DNA from: Betaproteobacteria bacterium
GTDB lineage: Bacteria > Pseudomonadota > Gammaproteobacteria > Burkholderiales > Burkholderiaceae_C
DNA length: 36,007 nt
Direction: 5' to 3'
Assembly: GCA_009921465.1 (NCBI GenBank)
Contig: RFXS01000006.1
Span: 1 to 36,007, forward strand
Positions 7,649 to 22,897 of the stretch are shown one piece after another. The position numbers and the translations under genes are program-made. Under the pieces are notes generated by a model. That model saw only the letters and a list, made by a program, of their open reading frames with translations. It made no database searches and was not told where the DNA came from. How positions within the stretch are numbered: position 1 is the stretch's first letter; each line of letters begins with the position of its first letter.

Positions 7649-8632
7649 ATGAGACGATCGTTCATTGCCACAGCAGTTTTAACGGCCACACTGATGGCTT
7701 TGCCTTTGGCGCAGGCACAAACCGAAATTCGAATCTCCACCGCGGCACCCGACAGCTCACCTTTGTCGGACGCGTTCCGATCGATCAAAACCCGCATGGA
7801 AGCCAAATTTCCAGGCGCCGTCAAGGTCTCTGTGCACACCGCGAGTGCCTTGTTTCGGCAAGGCACCGAGCTGCCCGCGATGCAGCGGGGCAACTTGGAA
7901 ATGGCCAGCCCCGTGACGTTTGAAATTGAAGCCCAACTGCCAGAGTACGGGGTGTTCAGCGCTGCTTACTTGTTTCGCGATGCAGAGCACTTGATCAAGA
8001 CCTTCCGCAGCGACATCGGCAAAGAGTATTACGACGATGTGGCCAATAAAGTGGGCTTGGTGATCTTGGACACAGCCTATTTGGGCACCCGCACCATCAA
8101 CCTGAACAACGACAAAAAAATTGAGAAACCCACCGACCTGGCCGGCACCAAGATGCGCATGCCCCCTGGCGCGTCCTTCCAAGTCTTGGCCAAGGCGTTG
8201 GGGGCCACACCCGTGGCCATGCCCATCACCGAGGTTTATCTGGGTTTGAAGACGGGTCAAATCGACGCCCAAGACAACCCCACCAACATGACGCGCGACT
8301 GGAAATTCCACGAAGTGACCAAACAAGTGGTGTTGACAAAGCATTTGGTCCAACCCGTTTTCATTGCCATGGCCAAGCCCGCCTTTGACAAGCTCACCGC
8401 GGCACAGCAAGCCGAGTTGCGCGCGGCCGCACGGGAAGCCACCGACGTGCAAATCGCCAAGACGCTGCAGGACGAAAAGTCAGCCCTGGACACGTTTCGC
8501 GCCGCCAACGTGCGCATCAGCGAACCCGATGCCACCGTTTTTCGGGCGACGGTGTTCAAGGAGTACGAAGCCAGTGGCATGACCGCGAAATGGAAGCCCG
8601 GCCTGATGGCGCGCATCCAAGCCATCAAGTGA
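7649..8632 (+). CDS. TRAP transporter substrate-binding protein, DctP family
   Basis: Periplasmic protein of 327 residues with a Sec signal peptide (MRRSF, then a hydrophobic stretch, cleavage after AQA-Q). The mature part starts with the DctP strand TEIRIST. The segment PTDLAGTKMRMPP (about 167-179) carries the conserved Arg that pairs with the ligand carboxylate in DctP proteins, followed by ITEVYLGLKTGQIDAQDNP, the usual second binding loop. A ribosome-binding site (CAGGAG) precedes the ATG. It presents an organic acid to the DctQM membrane pair encoded immediately downstream. Confidence 0.95.
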   Translation: MRRSFIATAVLTATLMALPLAQAQTEIRISTAAPDSSPLSDAFRSIKTRMEAKFPGAVKVSVHTASALFRQGTELPAMQRGNLEMASPVTFEIEAQLPEYGVFSAAYLFRDAEHLIKTFRSDIGKEYYDDVANKVGLVILDTAYLGTRTINLNNDKKIEKPTDLAGTKMRMPPGASFQVLAKALGATPVAMPITEVYLGLKTGQIDAQDNPTNMTRDWKFHEVTKQVVLTKHLVQPVFIAMAKPAFDKLTAAQQAELRAAAREATDVQIAKTLQDEKSALDTFRAANVRISEPDATVFRATVFKEYEASGMTAKWKPGLMARIQAIK

Positions 8633-8670
8633 ACCATTCCTTCAGCGATTATTGGACAGCCATTTAAGCC

Positions 8671-9204
8671 ATGGACATCCCAGCCATTCGCGCCAAGTTT
8701 CACGCGTTCAGCCGTTGGGCCGAATGGCTGACGGTGTCCATGTTCATCGGCATTTTTGTGTTGTTTGTGATCTCTGTTTTTCAGCGTTACGTCTTGGTTC
8801 AACCCGTCAATTGGGTGGACGAATCCATCTTAATTTTGTTTCTGTGGTCAACTTTTTTGACCGAGGCATTGGTGCTGAGCAACCGAGAGCAAGTCACCTT
8901 TGACGTGATTTGGGACCAGTGCGGCCCCAATGGTCGACGTTTGATCGGATTGACCGCTGCAGCGCTGATCGCGTTACTTTTCACACTTTCTGCGCCCACC
9001 ATTTGGGGCTATGTCGCCTTTCTTTGGCGCGAAAAAACCAATGCATTGGAGTGGCGACTGGACTATGTTTACGCTTGCTTTGTGATTTATTGGCTGGCGG
9101 TGATCGTGCGCGCCGTGGATCGGCTTTTATTGCTCAGCTCTGCCCAATGGGCCGAACACGTGAAGGATCAAAAAGCAGATGAGAAAACCAATGTGCTGGG
9201 TTAA
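8671..9204 (+). CDS. TRAP transporter small permease, DctQ family
   Basis: Integral membrane protein of 177 residues with four predicted helices: about 22-45 (LTVSMFIGIFVLFVISVFQRYVL), 50-68, 95-115 and 130-150. The motif QRYVLVQPVNWVDE after the first helix is typical of DctQ (R-Y-x4-x-W-x-E/D). DctQ pairs with DctM and positions the binding protein. It sits 38 bases after dctP and 18 before dctM in the same operon. Confidence 0.93.
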   Translation: MDIPAIRAKFHAFSRWAEWLTVSMFIGIFVLFVISVFQRYVLVQPVNWVDESILILFLWSTFLTEALVLSNREQVTFDVIWDQCGPNGRRLIGLTAAALIALLFTLSAPTIWGYVAFLWREKTNALEWRLDYVYACFVIYWLAVIVRAVDRLLLLSSAQWAEHVKDQKADEKTNVLG

Positions 9205-9222
9205 TTTGTCAAGGATCCGACC

Positions 9223-10518
9223 ATGAGCACCGCCTTGATGGCCATGGGCATTGTGATCTTGGTGTGTGCACTGCTCAGATTCTCCATCGTGTTGATGATG
9301 TTCAGCAGTGGCATCGTTTACTTGTGGGTCAAAGGCCAAGACATCGGCTTGATCGTCGACCAAACTTTGAATTCCATGTTCAGCATGTATGTCCTATTGG
9401 CCGTACCCATGTTCATTTTTGCCGGCAATGTGATGAACGCTTCGACGGTCAGCGAGCGCATTTGGAGTGCCGCTGATGTGTTGGTCGGGCGACTGCGCGG
9501 CGGCATGGGTCATATCACCGTTTTGATGAATGTGGTCATGTCGAGCATGAGCGGCAGCGCCATCAGCGATGCCGCTGGCCCCGGCATGGTGTCCATACGC
9601 ATGATGGAAAAAGTGGGTCAATACCCAAGGGGCTTGGCTGTGGCCATCGCGGCGGCGGCGTCTTGTCTAGGCCCGATCATCCCGCCCTCGATCCCGATGG
9701 TGATTTACGCACTCATCAGCACCGCGTCGCTGGGGGCCTTGTTTTTGGCCGGTGTCGTTCCTGGCCTGTTGATGGCTTTGAGCTTGATGCTGTGGATAGC
9801 CATGATTGCGCGCCAGCGCAACCTGCCCTTTGGGCAAAAAATATCCTTGTCGCAACTGCCCGTGGTGCTTTGGCGTGCTGCCTTGCCGCTGACTTTGCCG
9901 GTGATGCTGTTGGGCGGCATATGGTCGGGTATTTTCAGCCCCACCGAATCGGCGGCCATGGCAGGCTTGTGGGCCATCGTGATTGGTGCCTTTATTTATC
10001 GAAACTTGGGCCTGAAAACCTTGATCGGTATTTTTGCCATGTCAGCGCGCCAATCGGCCGTGGTGATGATGCTCATCGCCAGCTCGTTCATCGTCAATTA
10101 CGCCATCACCGCTGAGCAAGTCGCCGTTCAATTGGCCGCGTACATCGCCAGCTTGAACTTGTCGGCCATTGTCTTCATGCTGTTGGTCAATGTGATGTTC
10201 TTGATCTTGGGCACTGTGTTGGATGGTGCCGTGATGCTCTTGGTGTTCATCCCGGTGCTGCTGCCCACCGTGAATGCCTTGGGCATTGATTTGGTGCAAT
10301 TCGGTGTGGTGGTGATTCTCAACTTCATGATCGCCATGATCACTCCCCCTTACGGTTTGATTTTGTTCGTGCTGGGTTCGCTCACCGGTGTGCCCATGAA
10401 AGAAATCAACCGCGAAATTTGGCAGTTTTGCATTCCCCTGAGTGTGGTGATGTTCTTGATGATCTTTTTTCCATCCATCACCTTGTGGTTGCCGCGCATG
10501 TTTGGATATGCCGGCTAA
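9223..10518 (+). CDS. TRAP transporter large permease, DctM family
   Basis: Protein of 431 residues made of about 11-12 hydrophobic helices. Characteristic DctM segments are visible: the loop with SSMSGSAISDAAGPGMVSIRMMEK, the following AAAASCLGPIIPPSIPMVIYA, WSGIFSPTESAAMAG, and NFMIAMITPPYGLILFVLGSL with the conserved TPP motif near the C-terminus. It is the sodium-coupled translocation subunit. AAGGAT lies 6 bases before the ATG. With the two genes before it this is a complete TRAP system. Confidence 0.96.
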   Translation: MSTALMAMGIVILVCALLRFSIVLMMFSSGIVYLWVKGQDIGLIVDQTLNSMFSMYVLLAVPMFIFAGNVMNASTVSERIWSAADVLVGRLRGGMGHITVLMNVVMSSMSGSAISDAAGPGMVSIRMMEKVGQYPRGLAVAIAAAASCLGPIIPPSIPMVIYALISTASLGALFLAGVVPGLLMALSLMLWIAMIARQRNLPFGQKISLSQLPVVLWRAALPLTLPVMLLGGIWSGIFSPTESAAMAGLWAIVIGAFIYRNLGLKTLIGIFAMSARQSAVVMMLIASSFIVNYAITAEQVAVQLAAYIASLNLSAIVFMLLVNVMFLILGTVLDGAVMLLVFIPVLLPTVNALGIDLVQFGVVVILNFMIAMITPPYGLILFVLGSLTGVPMKEINREIWQFCIPLSVVMFLMIFFPSITLWLPRMFGYAG

Positions 10519-17215: not shown

Positions 17216-17274
17216 ATGAAATTTAAAAATCAAAGCATAGCAGGGCACATTTGTCCTCTGGCATGATGCATCAC

Positions 17275-18237
17275 ATGGCGCACATCACCACCTTGACCCT
17301 CAATCCCAGCGTGGACCTGCTCACCACCACCCCACAAGTGATGGATGCCCACAAAATGCGCTGCACATCGCCCTTGTATCACCCCGGCGGGGGGGGTATC
17401 AACGTGGCCCGTGTGGCGCATCGCTTGGGGGGTGACGTTGAAGCGCTTTGGCTGGGTGGTGGCCACGCAGGTGATCAATTGAACACTTTGCTGGATGATG
17501 AACAAATGCCCCACCTTCGGCTTGAAGCTGAGCAAGAAACACGGCAGAGCTTTTCGGTGCATGAAACCAGCACAGCACGAGACTACCGCTTTGTGCTGCC
17601 TGGCCCCAGCTTGGAACCACAGGCGCTGGCCAAGGGCTTGCAAACCTTTTATCAACAAGCAACAGCGTCGCGCATTTGGGTGGTCAGTGGCAGCTTGCCT
17701 GGCGGCGCGCCTGAAAGCATTTATTCGGAAATTGCACGCAAAGCCCAGGCTCAAGGTAAAAAACTGATTCTGGATGCATCTGGCCCTGCCTTGTTGGCAG
17801 CCATGCACGTGGGGGTCTTCATGGTCAAACCAAGCTTGCGGGAAATGGAAGAAATCGCTGGCCATGCCTTGCCCACCACAGCCATGCGATTGGCCCAGGC
17901 TCGGCATTGGTTGACCCAAGGACACTGCCATATTGTTGCGCTGTCACTGGGCGCTGAGGGTGCGATGCTGGTGACCCAACAAGGTGCCTGGCTTGCACCG
18001 AGCTTGTCAGTCACTGTGCGCAGCACGATTGGGGCGGGCGACAGTTTTGTGGGTGGGTTTGTGGCGGCACTGGACATGTCATACCCAGCAACAGACGCAA
18101 GCGTGCTGTTGTTGGCTTTTCGACAAGCCATGGCCGCATCAGCAGCGGCTTTGACTTCGCTGGGCACGGCTTTGTGCCAACCGCAAGATGTGGCTGACTT
18201 GCTCGGTGATGTGCAAATTTCATCATTGCCACGTTGA
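17275..18237 (+). CDS. PfkB/FruK-type hexose-phosphate kinase (1- or 6-phosphofructokinase family)
   Basis: Protein of 320 residues if started at the ATG at 17275 (MAHITTLTLNPSVDLLT), the usual beginning of this family; ATGs at 17263 and 17266 are also possible. It has GGGGINVARVAHRLGG (sugar-phosphate site), SGSLPGGAPE, and STIGAGDSFVGGFVAAL with the catalytic D256. These enzymes make fructose 1,6-bisphosphate (PfkB, FruK) or phosphorylate tagatose 6-phosphate (LacC). Exact substrate is not clear; there is no PTS neighbour, which favours a Pfk-2-like role. It is monocistronic. Confidence 0.88.
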   Translation: MAHITTLTLNPSVDLLTTTPQVMDAHKMRCTSPLYHPGGGGINVARVAHRLGGDVEALWLGGGHAGDQLNTLLDDEQMPHLRLEAEQETRQSFSVHETSTARDYRFVLPGPSLEPQALAKGLQTFYQQATASRIWVVSGSLPGGAPESIYSEIARKAQAQGKKLILDASGPALLAAMHVGVFMVKPSLREMEEIAGHALPTTAMRLAQARHWLTQGHCHIVALSLGAEGAMLVTQQGAWLAPSLSVTVRSTIGAGDSFVGGFVAALDMSYPATDASVLLLAFRQAMAASAAALTSLGTALCQPQDVADLLGDVQISSLPR

Positions 18238-18523: not shown

Positions 18524-20764
18524 ATGAGTGCGGCAGCACAACACCTGGGCCTGTTGGACCAATTCCGGGACACGCCCCAGGAAGCACCCAATTCACAACA
18601 AGCCACCTTCAGGCTGACCCCGCACTTGGTGCTGGCCAGCGCCTTGCTTCACATGATGGCCAGCGACGGGCAGATCGAAGAAGCAGAAAGCAGCCAACTT
18701 CAATCGGTGATTGGTGGTGATCAAAAGGTAATGAATCTGGCGGTCCAGTACACCCAAGCCGTTCCCCTGACTCAGTTTTTGACCGATGCCTACCAAGTGT
18801 TGGACAAGTCCAGCACATTGTGCGTACTGGCCAATGTGTGCGACTCTTTGCTGGCCGATGGCAGTGCTGGCCCCGAGGAACTGGCTTTATTTGAGCGCAT
18901 GAAAACGGCCTGGGGCGTCGATGCAGCGACTTTCGCGCCTTACCAAAAAGCCATTGCCCTGAAGAACAACGATTCAGTCATGGGTGAGTACGATGCGGGT
19001 CGATTAGCGGATCAGGTGGTCACACCCCATTTGGCACTGGCCGCTTCGCTGTTGTACATGATGGCCGCCGACGGATCCATTGCCACCGAAGAAATTGGTC
19101 AGTTGCAAACGGTGATTGGTGAGTTTCAGGGCTTGCAAGAAGCCGCATTGAAACAGGTGCGGTCCGTCAAGCTGCCGGATTTTTTAAAACGCGCTGCGCC
19201 CAGTTTGAGCCCAGAGGTCAAACTTTACATCTTGGCCAATGTGTGCGACTCCATGATGGCCGACGGCGACGTTGACTCACTGGAAAACAAAATTTTCCAA
19301 ACCATGCTTGCTGGCTATGGCCATGACAACGCGAGTTTCAAGCCGTTTTATCAATCCATCAAGGTCAAAAACATCAAGACCTTTTCGGCGGCGGTGCACA
19401 AACCCAAGCTGATTTACAGCAACATGTCTGCTGGCACTGGTCAAGATGAAAAAGGGGTGCGCTTCAACCGTGACAATTCTTTGGGCGCTGAGACCTCGGG
19501 TGTAGCAGGTCAAGGCGACCTGGATTCGGGCAAAGGTCCCGTGATTGCCCATGTGCTGCCTGGTCAAGAGGGTGGGCATGTTGGCAATCGCACCATGCAA
19601 GAAAACATCGATAAGGTGTCGCAAGGCTTCGGTGATGAAGACCAGGTCCATGTGGTGCAAGACAACGCCTTGGCAGATCAATTGGCCAAAGAGTCCAAAG
19701 CGCCAGGGGCGGATGACAACATCCAAAACATAGGCGGCAAGTCGCTTTCGCCCTCCCAGGACGGCCCCATCTTGAAGGCGTCCTCCACCCATGGGTCGGG
19801 GCCTGTTTTGAATGCAGTCCCACCCCAAGGACCCGGCCCCAATCTTTTGGACACCACCGCAGCCAGCGCCAATTTGCAGTCGGTTGCCACAGATCCAGCA
19901 ATGGACAACGCCATTCGCTTGCCTTCGCAAGCCTTGGCGGACAACACAAGCGGGATTAAAAAAGAAGGGATTGCAGATCGCAATGTGGCCTTGGAAAAGT
20001 CCACAGATCCAAGCAATCAAGCCAAATTGTCGGCCACGGGTGTCGCCGACAACACACTCAAACTGGATTCCAGTGCCAATGATGCACACCTTGAGACATT
20101 GCCCACGAGCGGGAACAACAACAATATTCAGCCGCTGACCGATGACTCACTGACAGTCAATCGCCAAGCCATCCCAGAAGGCGCCACAGACGAGAACCGC
20201 CAACCGCTTGGGTCAACTGCAAACGTCGATCAGGCGGCAGCCATCGCCAAAACGCCGCTCAACGACAACCGACAAGCGGCAGCAGAAAAATCGTTGGATG
20301 CCAATCGCCAACCCGCCGCCAACCCGACCGAAGCAGCCAATCGCCAGGGGGCCGGCGAAAAGGCCTTGGGCGCAAACACACAACCTGCACCTGCACCAAC
20401 ACCCTCGGCCAATCGACAGCCCGTCCCGCAAGATGCGGTGAGCTCGACCCGGGACAATGCACCGATTCAAACGGTTGGCACCCACCGAGCCAAGCTGCCC
20501 GGGGGCACGGCTGCACCTCAGATCACGCTGAAGTCGCGCAGCCAGCCCACTTCCGCTGGATTGACCTTGGACGCTCAAAAGCCCATGGTCAGAAAGGTTG
20601 ACCGGGTCAAACAGCTGACCGAACATGTCAGCCAATTGCGTTTGCGCTTAGATCAATTGGCGGGGCTGAATCACGCCGTTTTGGAAGCCGCAGAAAAGGC
20701 CGCTGGTGGAAACTGCAGCACCTGCGGCAATCCAAAGTGTTTGTTCACCCACCACGTCCACTGA
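18524..20764 (+). CDS. large protein with duplicated TerB-like domain, 12-residue repeat array and Cys/His tail
   Basis: Start at the ATG at 18524 (AGAGGAA seven bases upstream), giving 746 residues; no signal peptide. Two homologous all-helical domains (about 31-149 and 166-285) each carry the TerB pattern: TPHLxLAxxLLxMMAxDG, then LQxVIG, then LANVCDSxxADG-x-E. TerB domains occur in tellurite-resistance and stress proteins and may bind calcium or metals at the acidic turns. Residues 286-414 are a Gly/Asp-rich linker. Residues 415-665 form 21 twelve-residue repeats, best written N-R-Q-x-(L/I)-P-x-x-(G/A)-(L/I)-A-D. A coiled coil (about 692-725) precedes the end CSTCGNPKCLFTHHVH, a possible metal site. 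Function unknown; the combination is unusual. Confidence 0.85.
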   Translation: MSAAAQHLGLLDQFRDTPQEAPNSQQATFRLTPHLVLASALLHMMASDGQIEEAESSQLQSVIGGDQKVMNLAVQYTQAVPLTQFLTDAYQVLDKSSTLCVLANVCDSLLADGSAGPEELALFERMKTAWGVDAATFAPYQKAIALKNNDSVMGEYDAGRLADQVVTPHLALAASLLYMMAADGSIATEEIGQLQTVIGEFQGLQEAALKQVRSVKLPDFLKRAAPSLSPEVKLYILANVCDSMMADGDVDSLENKIFQTMLAGYGHDNASFKPFYQSIKVKNIKTFSAAVHKPKLIYSNMSAGTGQDEKGVRFNRDNSLGAETSGVAGQGDLDSGKGPVIAHVLPGQEGGHVGNRTMQENIDKVSQGFGDEDQVHVVQDNALADQLAKESKAPGADDNIQNIGGKSLSPSQDGPILKASSTHGSGPVLNAVPPQGPGPNLLDTTAASANLQSVATDPAMDNAIRLPSQALADNTSGIKKEGIADRNVALEKSTDPSNQAKLSATGVADNTLKLDSSANDAHLETLPTSGNNNNIQPLTDDSLTVNRQAIPEGATDENRQPLGSTANVDQAAAIAKTPLNDNRQAAAEKSLDANRQPAANPTEAANRQGAGEKALGANTQPAPAPTPSANRQPVPQDAVSSTRDNAPIQTVGTHRAKLPGGTAAPQITLKSRSQPTSAGLTLDAQKPMVRKVDRVKQLTEHVSQLRLRLDQLAGLNHAVLEAAEKAAGGNCSTCGNPKCLFTHHVH
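19766..20518 (+). repeat. 21 tandem degenerate 36-bp (12-residue) repeats
   Basis: Within the TerB-like gene, 753 bases divide into 21 units of 12 codons, with one unit of 11 (the third). Units in the second half begin NRQ (for example NRQAAAEKSLDA, NRQPAANPTEAA, NRQGAGEKALGA); earlier ones keep N at position 1, a hydrophobic residue at position 5 and D or A at 12 (NAIRLPSQALAD, NTSGIKKEGIAD, NQAKLSATGVAD). The DNA units are diverged, so this is an old protein repeat rather than a fresh duplication. Confidence 0.85.
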
Positions 20765-20859: not shown

Positions 20860-22737
20860 TCACTTTTGCCAGGCAAGCATGTCCTTGCCAAACATGAATG
20901 GGGCCCGCAATATGGGGTATTTGAAAAGGTCAGGGTCTTGCGGAGGCAAAAAGGACATCCAAAAATCGATGCGCGCCTGTGGATCCAACCGAAAAGATTC
21001 ATCGCTGCTTAGTTTTTCCTCATACCTTTGGCGAATGAGGGGCAATTGCGCAGCCAATGCGTCGCCATAAAGTTGGCCAATCAGCGGGCTTTGTTCGTGC
21101 ATCCTTCGGATCAACTCCAGTTCACGGTGGTCAGCCACATAGTCGCTGGTTTCATACGCCGTATTGAACATGCCCCAGGATGAAAACGAATCAGGTGCCG
21201 CTGGCTCGAACAAATGGGCCACCAGCAAGGCCTTGGGTTGCTGAATGGGCACAAAAATGGAGCCCTTCCTCACCCCCGCAAGCTCCAAAGACCAATGGCC
21301 GGTGACGCTGGTTCGCTGCCGCCCCTGAAAACTATCGGCGTCATACACAACGTCTTGGGGTCTAACACGCATCACATCCATGTCTTTGGGCGTTTGGTCT
21401 TTGTTGACCTGGCCAAACCGTATTCCATGGTGAATCAACAATGGCTTGATCAAACTGGCCCATTCGGTGGGGATGACGTAGCCCCCTTGAGGCAATTTGA
21501 CCGTTGATTCTTGTATCGGCAGCAACTTGTTATAAAACGGGACCGACCACACTTGGTGTTCGGTTGTGTCGTACGCAATGCCCCGCCCGCCGACCACGGG
21601 CGCATCTTGAAACACCTCGTAGCGGTACCCCTTTATTTCAATATGGGGTACGGTCTGGTTCGGGTCAATGTCAACGGCGTTGACCCACATCAGGGGCACC
21701 TCTCGCCCTGCCAGAGATTGGTTCTGCGCATCTGCTTGGGCCGCAGAGTGCACCAGTTCAAATCGGTTCGCTGCAATCACACGGAAAAATGCCAGCAAGG
21801 TGTTTTTGCTGGTCAACACACGCTCTGCGTAAGGCGACCAGGCATGGTCTTCAATCAAAAAGCCCCATCGGTTGCGCAAACTGGCATACACATGCGAGAA
21901 GCGCGGGGCATCAGCTTCCAAAATCACCCCCATGCCCGGGTCGTTGACATCCTTCAATTGGGGATAGAAGCCCAAAGGATCATGGCCCATGCTGCGCAAC
22001 TGGGCCAATGTGCCGTTGAGCATTTGAATCGCCTCTCTTTGAATCACCGGATCGATGGCGTAATGCGAGGACATAGAGACCGAGACATCGTGTCGAAACC
22101 GCAAACCATCGGTGACATGCAAGTCCAATGTCACCAGCGGGTCCCACTGCTGCACCAAGCTGAGCATGGCCTTGGTCTCATGGGCTTGCGCGATCATCCA
22201 GTCGCGGTTCAAATTGATGCGCAAGGCATTGGTTCTTTGCCCCGTCTCCAAGGGGCCATTTTGGTTGGGCCGACTGAATTTGCTGCGGTTTTCATGGCCA
22301 TCTACATTGAACACCGGAACAAACACCACCACCAATTGATGCAAGGGGTTTTGGTTGCTCGGATCAGCCAGCAGATCGCGCATCAAAATCAATCCCGCAT
22401 CTTTGCCATCGATTTCACCCGCATGGGTTCCTCCAATGACCAATACCACGGGTATTTTTTGCTTTTTGGCGGCCAGGGCATTGAGTGCACCTGTTTTGCT
22501 CACCACCATCGCTTTGATGTCACGCCCCTGCGCCGTCGTGCCCATGTTGAAGCATTTCACAGACGTGGGGTGGCCTCGCTGGAGATCGCGGCAGTAACGC
22601 CCCACCTCTGGGTACGGGCCCGACTGAGCAAAACCCGTGAGTTCGGCATGCACTCGATGCGGCAAAGGATTGGATGCGGCCGTCTGACCCATGCAAGCCG
22701 CCAAGCAAAAGATAAAAGCGATGCGCAAACTTCTCAT
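20860..22737 (-). CDS. secreted or lipid-anchored M14-family zinc carboxypeptidase
   Basis: Start taken at the ATG at 22737, giving 625 residues; the frame extends back to a GTG. The N-terminus MRSLRIAFIFCLAACMGQ is a signal peptide and LAAC is a possible lipobox (C15). The peptidase domain shows the zinc motif H105-AGE108 in IGGTHAGEIDG and the third ligand H207 in LVTLDLHVTDG, plus FNVDGHENR and ALRINLNRDW, which hold substrate-binding Arg/Asn. A second beta-rich half (about 350-625) is likely a separate C-terminal domain. It should remove C-terminal residues from peptides in the envelope; specificity is not predictable. It is convergent with the TerB-repeat gene. Confidence 0.9.
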   Translation of the reverse strand: MRSLRIAFIFCLAACMGQTAASNPLPHRVHAELTGFAQSGPYPEVGRYCRDLQRGHPTSVKCFNMGTTAQGRDIKAMVVSKTGALNALAAKKQKIPVVLVIGGTHAGEIDGKDAGLILMRDLLADPSNQNPLHQLVVVFVPVFNVDGHENRSKFSRPNQNGPLETGQRTNALRINLNRDWMIAQAHETKAMLSLVQQWDPLVTLDLHVTDGLRFRHDVSVSMSSHYAIDPVIQREAIQMLNGTLAQLRSMGHDPLGFYPQLKDVNDPGMGVILEADAPRFSHVYASLRNRWGFLIEDHAWSPYAERVLTSKNTLLAFFRVIAANRFELVHSAAQADAQNQSLAGREVPLMWVNAVDIDPNQTVPHIEIKGYRYEVFQDAPVVGGRGIAYDTTEHQVWSVPFYNKLLPIQESTVKLPQGGYVIPTEWASLIKPLLIHHGIRFGQVNKDQTPKDMDVMRVRPQDVVYDADSFQGRQRTSVTGHWSLELAGVRKGSIFVPIQQPKALLVAHLFEPAAPDSFSSWGMFNTAYETSDYVADHRELELIRRMHEQSPLIGQLYGDALAAQLPLIRQRYEEKLSSDESFRLDPQARIDFWMSFLPPQDPDLFKYPILRAPFMFGKDMLAWQK

Positions 22738-22897
22738 CACAACTTTTGGTTCATATCCATACACTCAAAATCACTGGGACCTCGAGATTGAAGTTTCAAT
22801 TGTTTCACGCCTGGACAAACCAGGTGATAAGCCCTGGACCCCCAAGGTCATATCTGGCACGGTCAAAAGCACGGGGCATGGCAAAATTGTGGCTCGT

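Follow-up and report, generated by a model that had tools for sequence, protein, structure and literature searches.

A tandem-TerB protein in a Betaproteobacteria genome

The window, i.e., the whole stretch of 36,007 nucleotides analyzed in this study, belongs to a 1.93-Mb assembly of a Betaproteobacteria bacterium that is 57.6% complete. It contains an open reading frame (ORF) on the forward strand (positions 18524 to 20764) that encodes a protein of 746 amino acids composed of two TerB domains, an NxQ repeat array, a helix, and a Cys/His tail; an AGAGGA sequence, read by eye, is located 6 nucleotides 5' of the ATG. As context only, a gene for a PfkB-type hexose kinase lies upstream (17251 to 18237, forward strand; Pfam and NCBIfam) and a gene for an M14 carboxypeptidase-like protein downstream on the reverse strand (20860 to 22764; Pfam). 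Farther away, at positions 7649 to 10518, the window carries the TRAP transporter genes for DctP, DctQ, and DctM in a row, flanked by genes for an FAA hydrolase and an FAD-linked oxidase, which is an ordinary arrangement.

TerB domain 1 spans approximately residues 26 to 153 (18599 to 18982) and TerB domain 2 approximately residues 160 to 290 (19001 to 19393), both, like all parts described below, on the forward strand. Analysis of the whole protein with the Pfam TerB family (PF05099) yielded two matching stretches with an E value of 5.4e-12 and 46.5 bits (cutoff, 24.4 bits), and each domain also exceeded this cutoff by itself in the genome search, with 25.0 and 28.5 bits for domains 1 and 2, respectively. 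The two domains share 43% identity over 118 residues, and the duplication suggested by a preliminary description made from the sequence of the window is supported. Both were predicted to be helical by AlphaFold2, with block pLDDT values of 80 to 94 from residue 31 in domain 1 and 85 to 96 in domain 2 (68 at residues 281 to 290). Acidic DG...E motifs are marks of TerB, and the corresponding positions are invariant in 26 aligned rows (D24, G25, E31; D88, G89, E95; D159, G160, E166; D223, E230). In a Foldseek search with the helical model, the best PDB match was the TerB-like structure 2h5n, with a probability of 0.99 to 1.00, a TM-score (target) of at most 0.61, and E values of 0.07 to 0.21, which are not significant; profile comparison with solved TerB relatives gave E values of 0.0015 for 2h5n (PG_1108) and 0.047 for 2ou3.

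In contrast to PF05099, 2h5n, and 2ou3, the window protein has two tandem copies of the domain fused to a long repeat array, and no ter gene was found nearby. The latter had already been proposed and is borne out by the subset of window ORFs submitted to Pfam or NCBIfam, among which no ter operon families were detected. Single-domain TerB proteins in other genomes of the Comamonadaceae family and on plasmids of Azospirillum, Niveispirillum, and Exiguobacterium are approximately 30 to 41% identical over most of one domain, with higher identity in short pieces; those inspected have one domain and lack both array and tail. Besides TerB, no Pfam match to the window protein, and hence none to a J-domain, was obtained at an E value of 1, and NCBIfam yielded no match at 0.01. 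The earlier assumption that the whole architecture has no named family agrees with our searches of Pfam, NCBIfam, PADLOC, and PHROGs, in which none was found.

A function in defense was rejected, as no PADLOC model matched any of the four proteins submitted. A phage or plasmid origin was likewise rejected: viral contigs, searched with two short patterns only, gave no relative, PHROGs matches were weak (best E value, 0.0047), and the TerB genes on five plasmid records each covered less than half of the query.

The TerB domains are followed by linker helices (residues 349 to 391; 19568 to 19696; block pLDDT of 65 to 86) with a TMQENIxxVxxxF-like motif, which pattern matching detected in 16 of 26 distinct tandem loci, including the window. 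C-terminal to the array, AlphaFold2 predicted a coiled-coil-like helix (residues 691 to 726; 20594 to 20701), which could be aligned in the three sister species; its block pLDDT of 58 to 71, and the low values of the tail (59, then 40), were obtained with a shallow alignment of 24 rows. This terminal helix is in line with the coiled coil noted previously. The protein ends in the Cys/His tail CSTCGNPKCLFTHHVH (residues 731 to 746; 20714 to 20761), with cysteines at positions 731, 734, and 739 and histidines at positions 743 and 744. No clear membrane segment was found, the highest hydropathy over 19 residues (1.41) being located inside TerB domain 2.

A 12-residue repeat in two protein families

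The NxQ array covers approximately residues 399 to 640 (19718 to 20443), is regular between residues 534 and 630, and is predicted to be disordered. Autocorrelation of residues 331 to 680 revealed z scores of 10.0 at lag 12, 8.2 at lag 24, and 5.4 at lag 36, compared to a maximum of 4.3 in 1,000 shuffles evaluated over lags 4 to 40, and the 12-residue period of the preliminary description is thereby confirmed. In an alignment of 24 TerB proteins, N-x-Q units were most often spaced by 12 residues (124 of 207 gaps), and isoleucine, leucine, or valine was found two residues past the glutamine in 88% of 230 units.

The same repeat occurs in a second protein family of the genus, for which a profile of 10 rows was built. 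In these array proteins, NxQ units recur every 12 or 13 residues (193 of 210 gaps), the N terminus is conserved (VRSGSxHSVSVSExTGNAKTPKNIV-like), and the conserved C terminus is predicted to be helical in the one protein modeled. The profile recognized the array of the window protein with an E value of 3.2e-26 and matched 74 of 84 genomes of the genus, arrays of TerB proteins included. Outside the genus samples, it matched 4 of 299 family genomes, each belonging to the genus, and 1 of 300 order genomes, which is that of the window itself; the family, order, and phylum sets are overlapping samples rather than censuses. The window protein thus shares with the array proteins the 12-residue N-x-Q unit, the I/L/V residue two positions past the glutamine, and a C-terminal helix, whereas the array proteins differ in their own N-terminal motif and the 12/13 spacing and, as the one tested had no Pfam match, lack TerB. 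At the two loci tested, their genes lie beside a gene for an NADH:flavin oxidoreductase. Both sister species of the window genome have a separate match outside the TerB gene (G015, contig 439; G069, contig 24), and no match to a separate array protein was found in the 57.6% complete window genome.

That the repeat is a low-complexity artifact was rejected on the basis of the shuffles and of the failure of the array profile to match 295 of 299 genomes in the family sample and 299 of 300 in the overlapping order sample. A regular solenoid was not supported either, with block pLDDT values of 29 to 42 for the window array and 30 to 47 for an array protein (L085), both from shallow alignments.

NxQ units were also observed in a third protein of 229 amino acids (G006; L129:7115-7801, reverse strand), which has three units, a helix-like C terminus, and an N terminus unlike that of the array proteins. 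Separately, a 167-amino-acid protein encoded two genes past an FlhB-type export gene (G026; L130:6928-7428, forward strand) ends in LHVRMGKLTDDIQTLNVRLDRLDEQ, a weak match to the array profile (E value, 7.8e-4).

Relatives of the window protein and their C termini

Searches with the whole window protein matched 64 of the 84 genus genomes, a count in which TerB and array matches are mixed, and 19 of 299 family genomes, namely, 4 of the genus and, through pieces of TerB, 15 others. A profile of the tandem-TerB region (26 rows) matched 51 of the 84 genus genomes and covered both domains in 42, including the strongly diverged G067; the remaining genus matches are single-domain ORFs of about 130 to 155 amino acids, fragments, or weak pieces. 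With the same profile, 9 of 300 genomes in the order sample were matched, with both domains covered only in the window and in G511, and 44 of 398 genomes in the phylum sample (the window's included), with both domains covered only in the window. Out of the 42 genomes covering both domains, we examined the neighborhoods of 26 distinct tandem loci and of the diverged locus L102 (G067), which is cut by a contig end, has only one NxQ, and shows no regulator/kinase pair. Besides L102, the set of 26 leaves aside L060 and L063, which duplicate L066 and L075, and L101, which has a single domain.

Three of the 26 loci (L076, L080, and L082) stop at a contig edge, leaving 23 with complete ends. A C-terminal hydrophobic peak over 19 residues was found in 20 of these, with values of 1.27 to 2.49; 12 of the 20 reach 1.6, and 3 (1.27, 1.34, and 1.39) are below the 1.41 of the window's own TerB domain 2. 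Judged by this hydropathy, most relatives are probably anchored in the membrane by their C termini. The three loci without a peak are the window, L065 (G069), and L066 (G015). In both sister species, the three cysteines, the CGNP motif, and the HH pair are kept, and a dedicated search of the 84 genus genomes detected the helix with the Cys/His tail only in G000, G015, and G069 (E values of 3.8e-27 or better). Further candidate genes for the tail in the genus were discarded, as the remaining matches were at chance level (E values of 0.025 or worse), and similarity of the tail to PDB entries was also at chance level only (E values of 2.2 to 2.8). The Cys/His cluster is a candidate for metal coordination. 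The Cys/His tail of the preliminary description is real and kept in the sisters, but does not define the family, being present in 3 of 84 genomes with a hydrophobic peak in its place in 20 of 23 loci.

In the phylogenetic tree, the window groups with its two sisters in a single clade (100/100), to which the membrane-type L067 is the closest row in path length. The simplest reading is that a membrane helix was replaced by the Cys/His tail in the window clade, a direction of change that is not proved because the tree is open at its deepest fork and was rooted by midpoint on the long L128 branch (4.88).

Six proteins (L061, L062, L064, L074, L075, and L078) extend by at least about 110 residues past the helix, with RRGEVYLDNHRFPLYKELN-like sequences in several. 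This stretch is presumably periplasmic; in L075, the one tested, Pfam assigned it to no family.

Comparison of the three Cys-tail species revealed dN/dS ratios of 0.08 to 0.09 for TerB and 0.28 to 0.34 for the array (dS of 1.3 to 2.0 in these two), 0.13 to 0.16 for the linker in two comparisons (the third being saturated), and 0.06 to 0.33 for the 20-residue tail, all of which are rough because dS is 0.75 to 2; the helix comparison was saturated and not used. The value for TerB does not support a decaying gene. In the array, dN is approximately 3.6 to 4.9 times that of TerB, and units have been gained and lost.

Two-component neighbors and possible role

A response regulator and a histidine kinase gene adjoin the tandem-TerB gene in 18 of the 26 distinct loci, and a regulator alone in L084. 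Two types of loci can be distinguished: in type 1 (10 loci), regulator, kinase, and TerB gene follow one another in the same direction, whereas in type 2 (8 loci) the regulator and kinase genes are divergent from the TerB gene. These assignments rest on Pfam for one representative per type and on BLAST to the representatives for the others (39 to 82% identity in type 1, 27 to 98% in type 2); the representative type 2 kinase has a 7TMR-DISMED2 part according to Pfam. Since the regulators of the two types are only 26% identical, the linkage involves two pairs that are related only distantly. However, loci within a clade share descent, and the 18 linked loci are thus not 18 independent events. 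The seven loci with neither regulator nor kinase comprise the three Cys-tail loci, among them that of the window, where no two-component genes are adjacent, plus four loci forming one clade. In this clade, L075 is located near hrcA, nadK, and recN-like genes, and the other three loci have neighbors of similar size.

The linkage was also found in another family of the order. There, G511 encodes a protein of 789 amino acids (L128) that matches the tandem-TerB profile over both domains (E value, 2.2e-43), an assignment resting on this family profile, as Pfam gave no match at 0.01. Its C-terminal part reaches a hydrophobic peak of 2.25, and NxQ units are absent. The gene is oriented divergently to a type 1-like pair, with 56% identity for the regulator and 43% over 464 residues, including the sensor part, for the kinase; the gene order differs from that of type 1, but the partners look the same. 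A gene of this type was detected in one of five genomes of G511's family, and the protein is very diverged, as its long branch shows.

In four genus loci, an Ion_trans channel gene (Pfam on two) follows the TerB gene. The encoded channel is a distant relative of one found on contig 140 of the window genome (L132:5841-7702, forward strand), where two channel-like genes are adjacent and the second matches Ion_trans in Pfam; this second gene also encodes, at its C terminus, a half-domain similar to TerB that scores below the Pfam cutoff (19.0 versus 24.4 bits).

Most likely, the tandem-TerB protein is an accessory component, or a direct target, of two-component signaling, and the window copy is a soluble, unlinked variant. 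Because adjacency cannot separate a component from a target, we assign a probability of only about 0.38 to the first of these, i.e., an accessory role of the tandem-TerB head in the neighboring signaling pair, with the window protein as a soluble member that has a coil-like helix and Cys/His tail, and we consider the second somewhat unlikely when taken by itself. In the accessory model, most relatives would consist of a cytosolic tandem-TerB head, a long disordered tether, and a C-terminal membrane helix, and their partners would be the OmpR-type response regulator and membrane histidine kinase encoded alongside. The head might sense or bind a metal- or envelope-stress-related state and modulate the kinase or its output, and the NxQ array may act as a flexible spacer offering many equivalent binding sites, like the array of the second protein family. 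The window species and its two sisters would carry the coil-like helix and Cys/His tail in place of the membrane helix, and the tail may oligomerize the protein via a metal ion.

If the tandem-TerB gene were instead a transcriptional target or output effector of the adjacent pair, its product would be a downstream envelope- or metal-stress protein, possibly under control of the pair and without contact to the kinase. Local regulators often lie next to their targets, and the type 2 layout, with its divergent genes, suits a regulator-target pair. The adjacency data are the same for both models, but the ten codirectional type 1 loci suit a shared operon at least equally well.

Less probable still is a scaffold, the kind of use suggested by the preliminary description, in which the NxQ array would be the working part and tandem-TerB and array proteins would coassemble into a cytosolic or membrane-bound network cross-linked through the Cys/His tail and helices. 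Scaffolds commonly contain multivalent disordered repeats, and the profile match between the two arrays, its wide occurrence in the genus, and the predicted helix near the C terminus of both kinds of protein fit such a function. The fast divergence of the array relative to TerB and its changing number of units argue against it, as does the lack of a match to a separate array protein in the incomplete window genome. A stand-alone, classical TerB-type tellurite or metal-stress protein with the tail as metal or redox sensor, as family membership, the invariant DG...E motifs, and the conservation of the tail in three species might suggest, is improbable given that no ter genes were found among the tested window ORFs and that relatives without the tail are nevertheless often linked to two-component genes.

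The accessory model has a precedent in DjlA, a membrane-anchored TerB-like and J-domain protein that, according to a published study, acts on the Rcs phosphorelay (PMC11709261). DjlA resembles the tandem-TerB proteins in its TerB-like cytosolic part, its tie to a phosphorelay, and its one membrane helix (PMC11709261), which most relatives of the window protein also appear to have; in contrast, the window protein has no J-domain match, and the helix is N-terminal in DjlA, C-terminal in the relatives, and absent from the window copy.

A more far-reaching version is speculative and, in our estimate, quite unlikely as a whole: tandem-TerB proteins would be a third component of two-component systems, joined by the NxQ array to a genus-wide network of array proteins, and one clade would have switched from membrane anchoring to metal-driven oligomerization via the Cys/His tail. 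If true, this would represent a new kind of bacterial signaling scaffold.

The TerB domain itself is known. No family among those searched matched the architecture, its linkage to kinase genes, the array common to two protein families, or the tail specific to one clade. Within the mainly open-access literature covered by our search, nothing was found on the tandem-TerB/NxQ architecture, its kinase linkage, or the repeat. The NxQ dodecamer provides a compact case of a repeat that is restricted to one lineage, probably disordered, and not confined to a single protein; two protein families have it in common, and among the genomes sampled it was matched in one genus only. TerB-like domains have a poorly defined role, that of DjlA being described as unknown in function (PMC11709261), and the histidine kinase pair often found next to the gene for a TerB head provides a testable partner for this domain.
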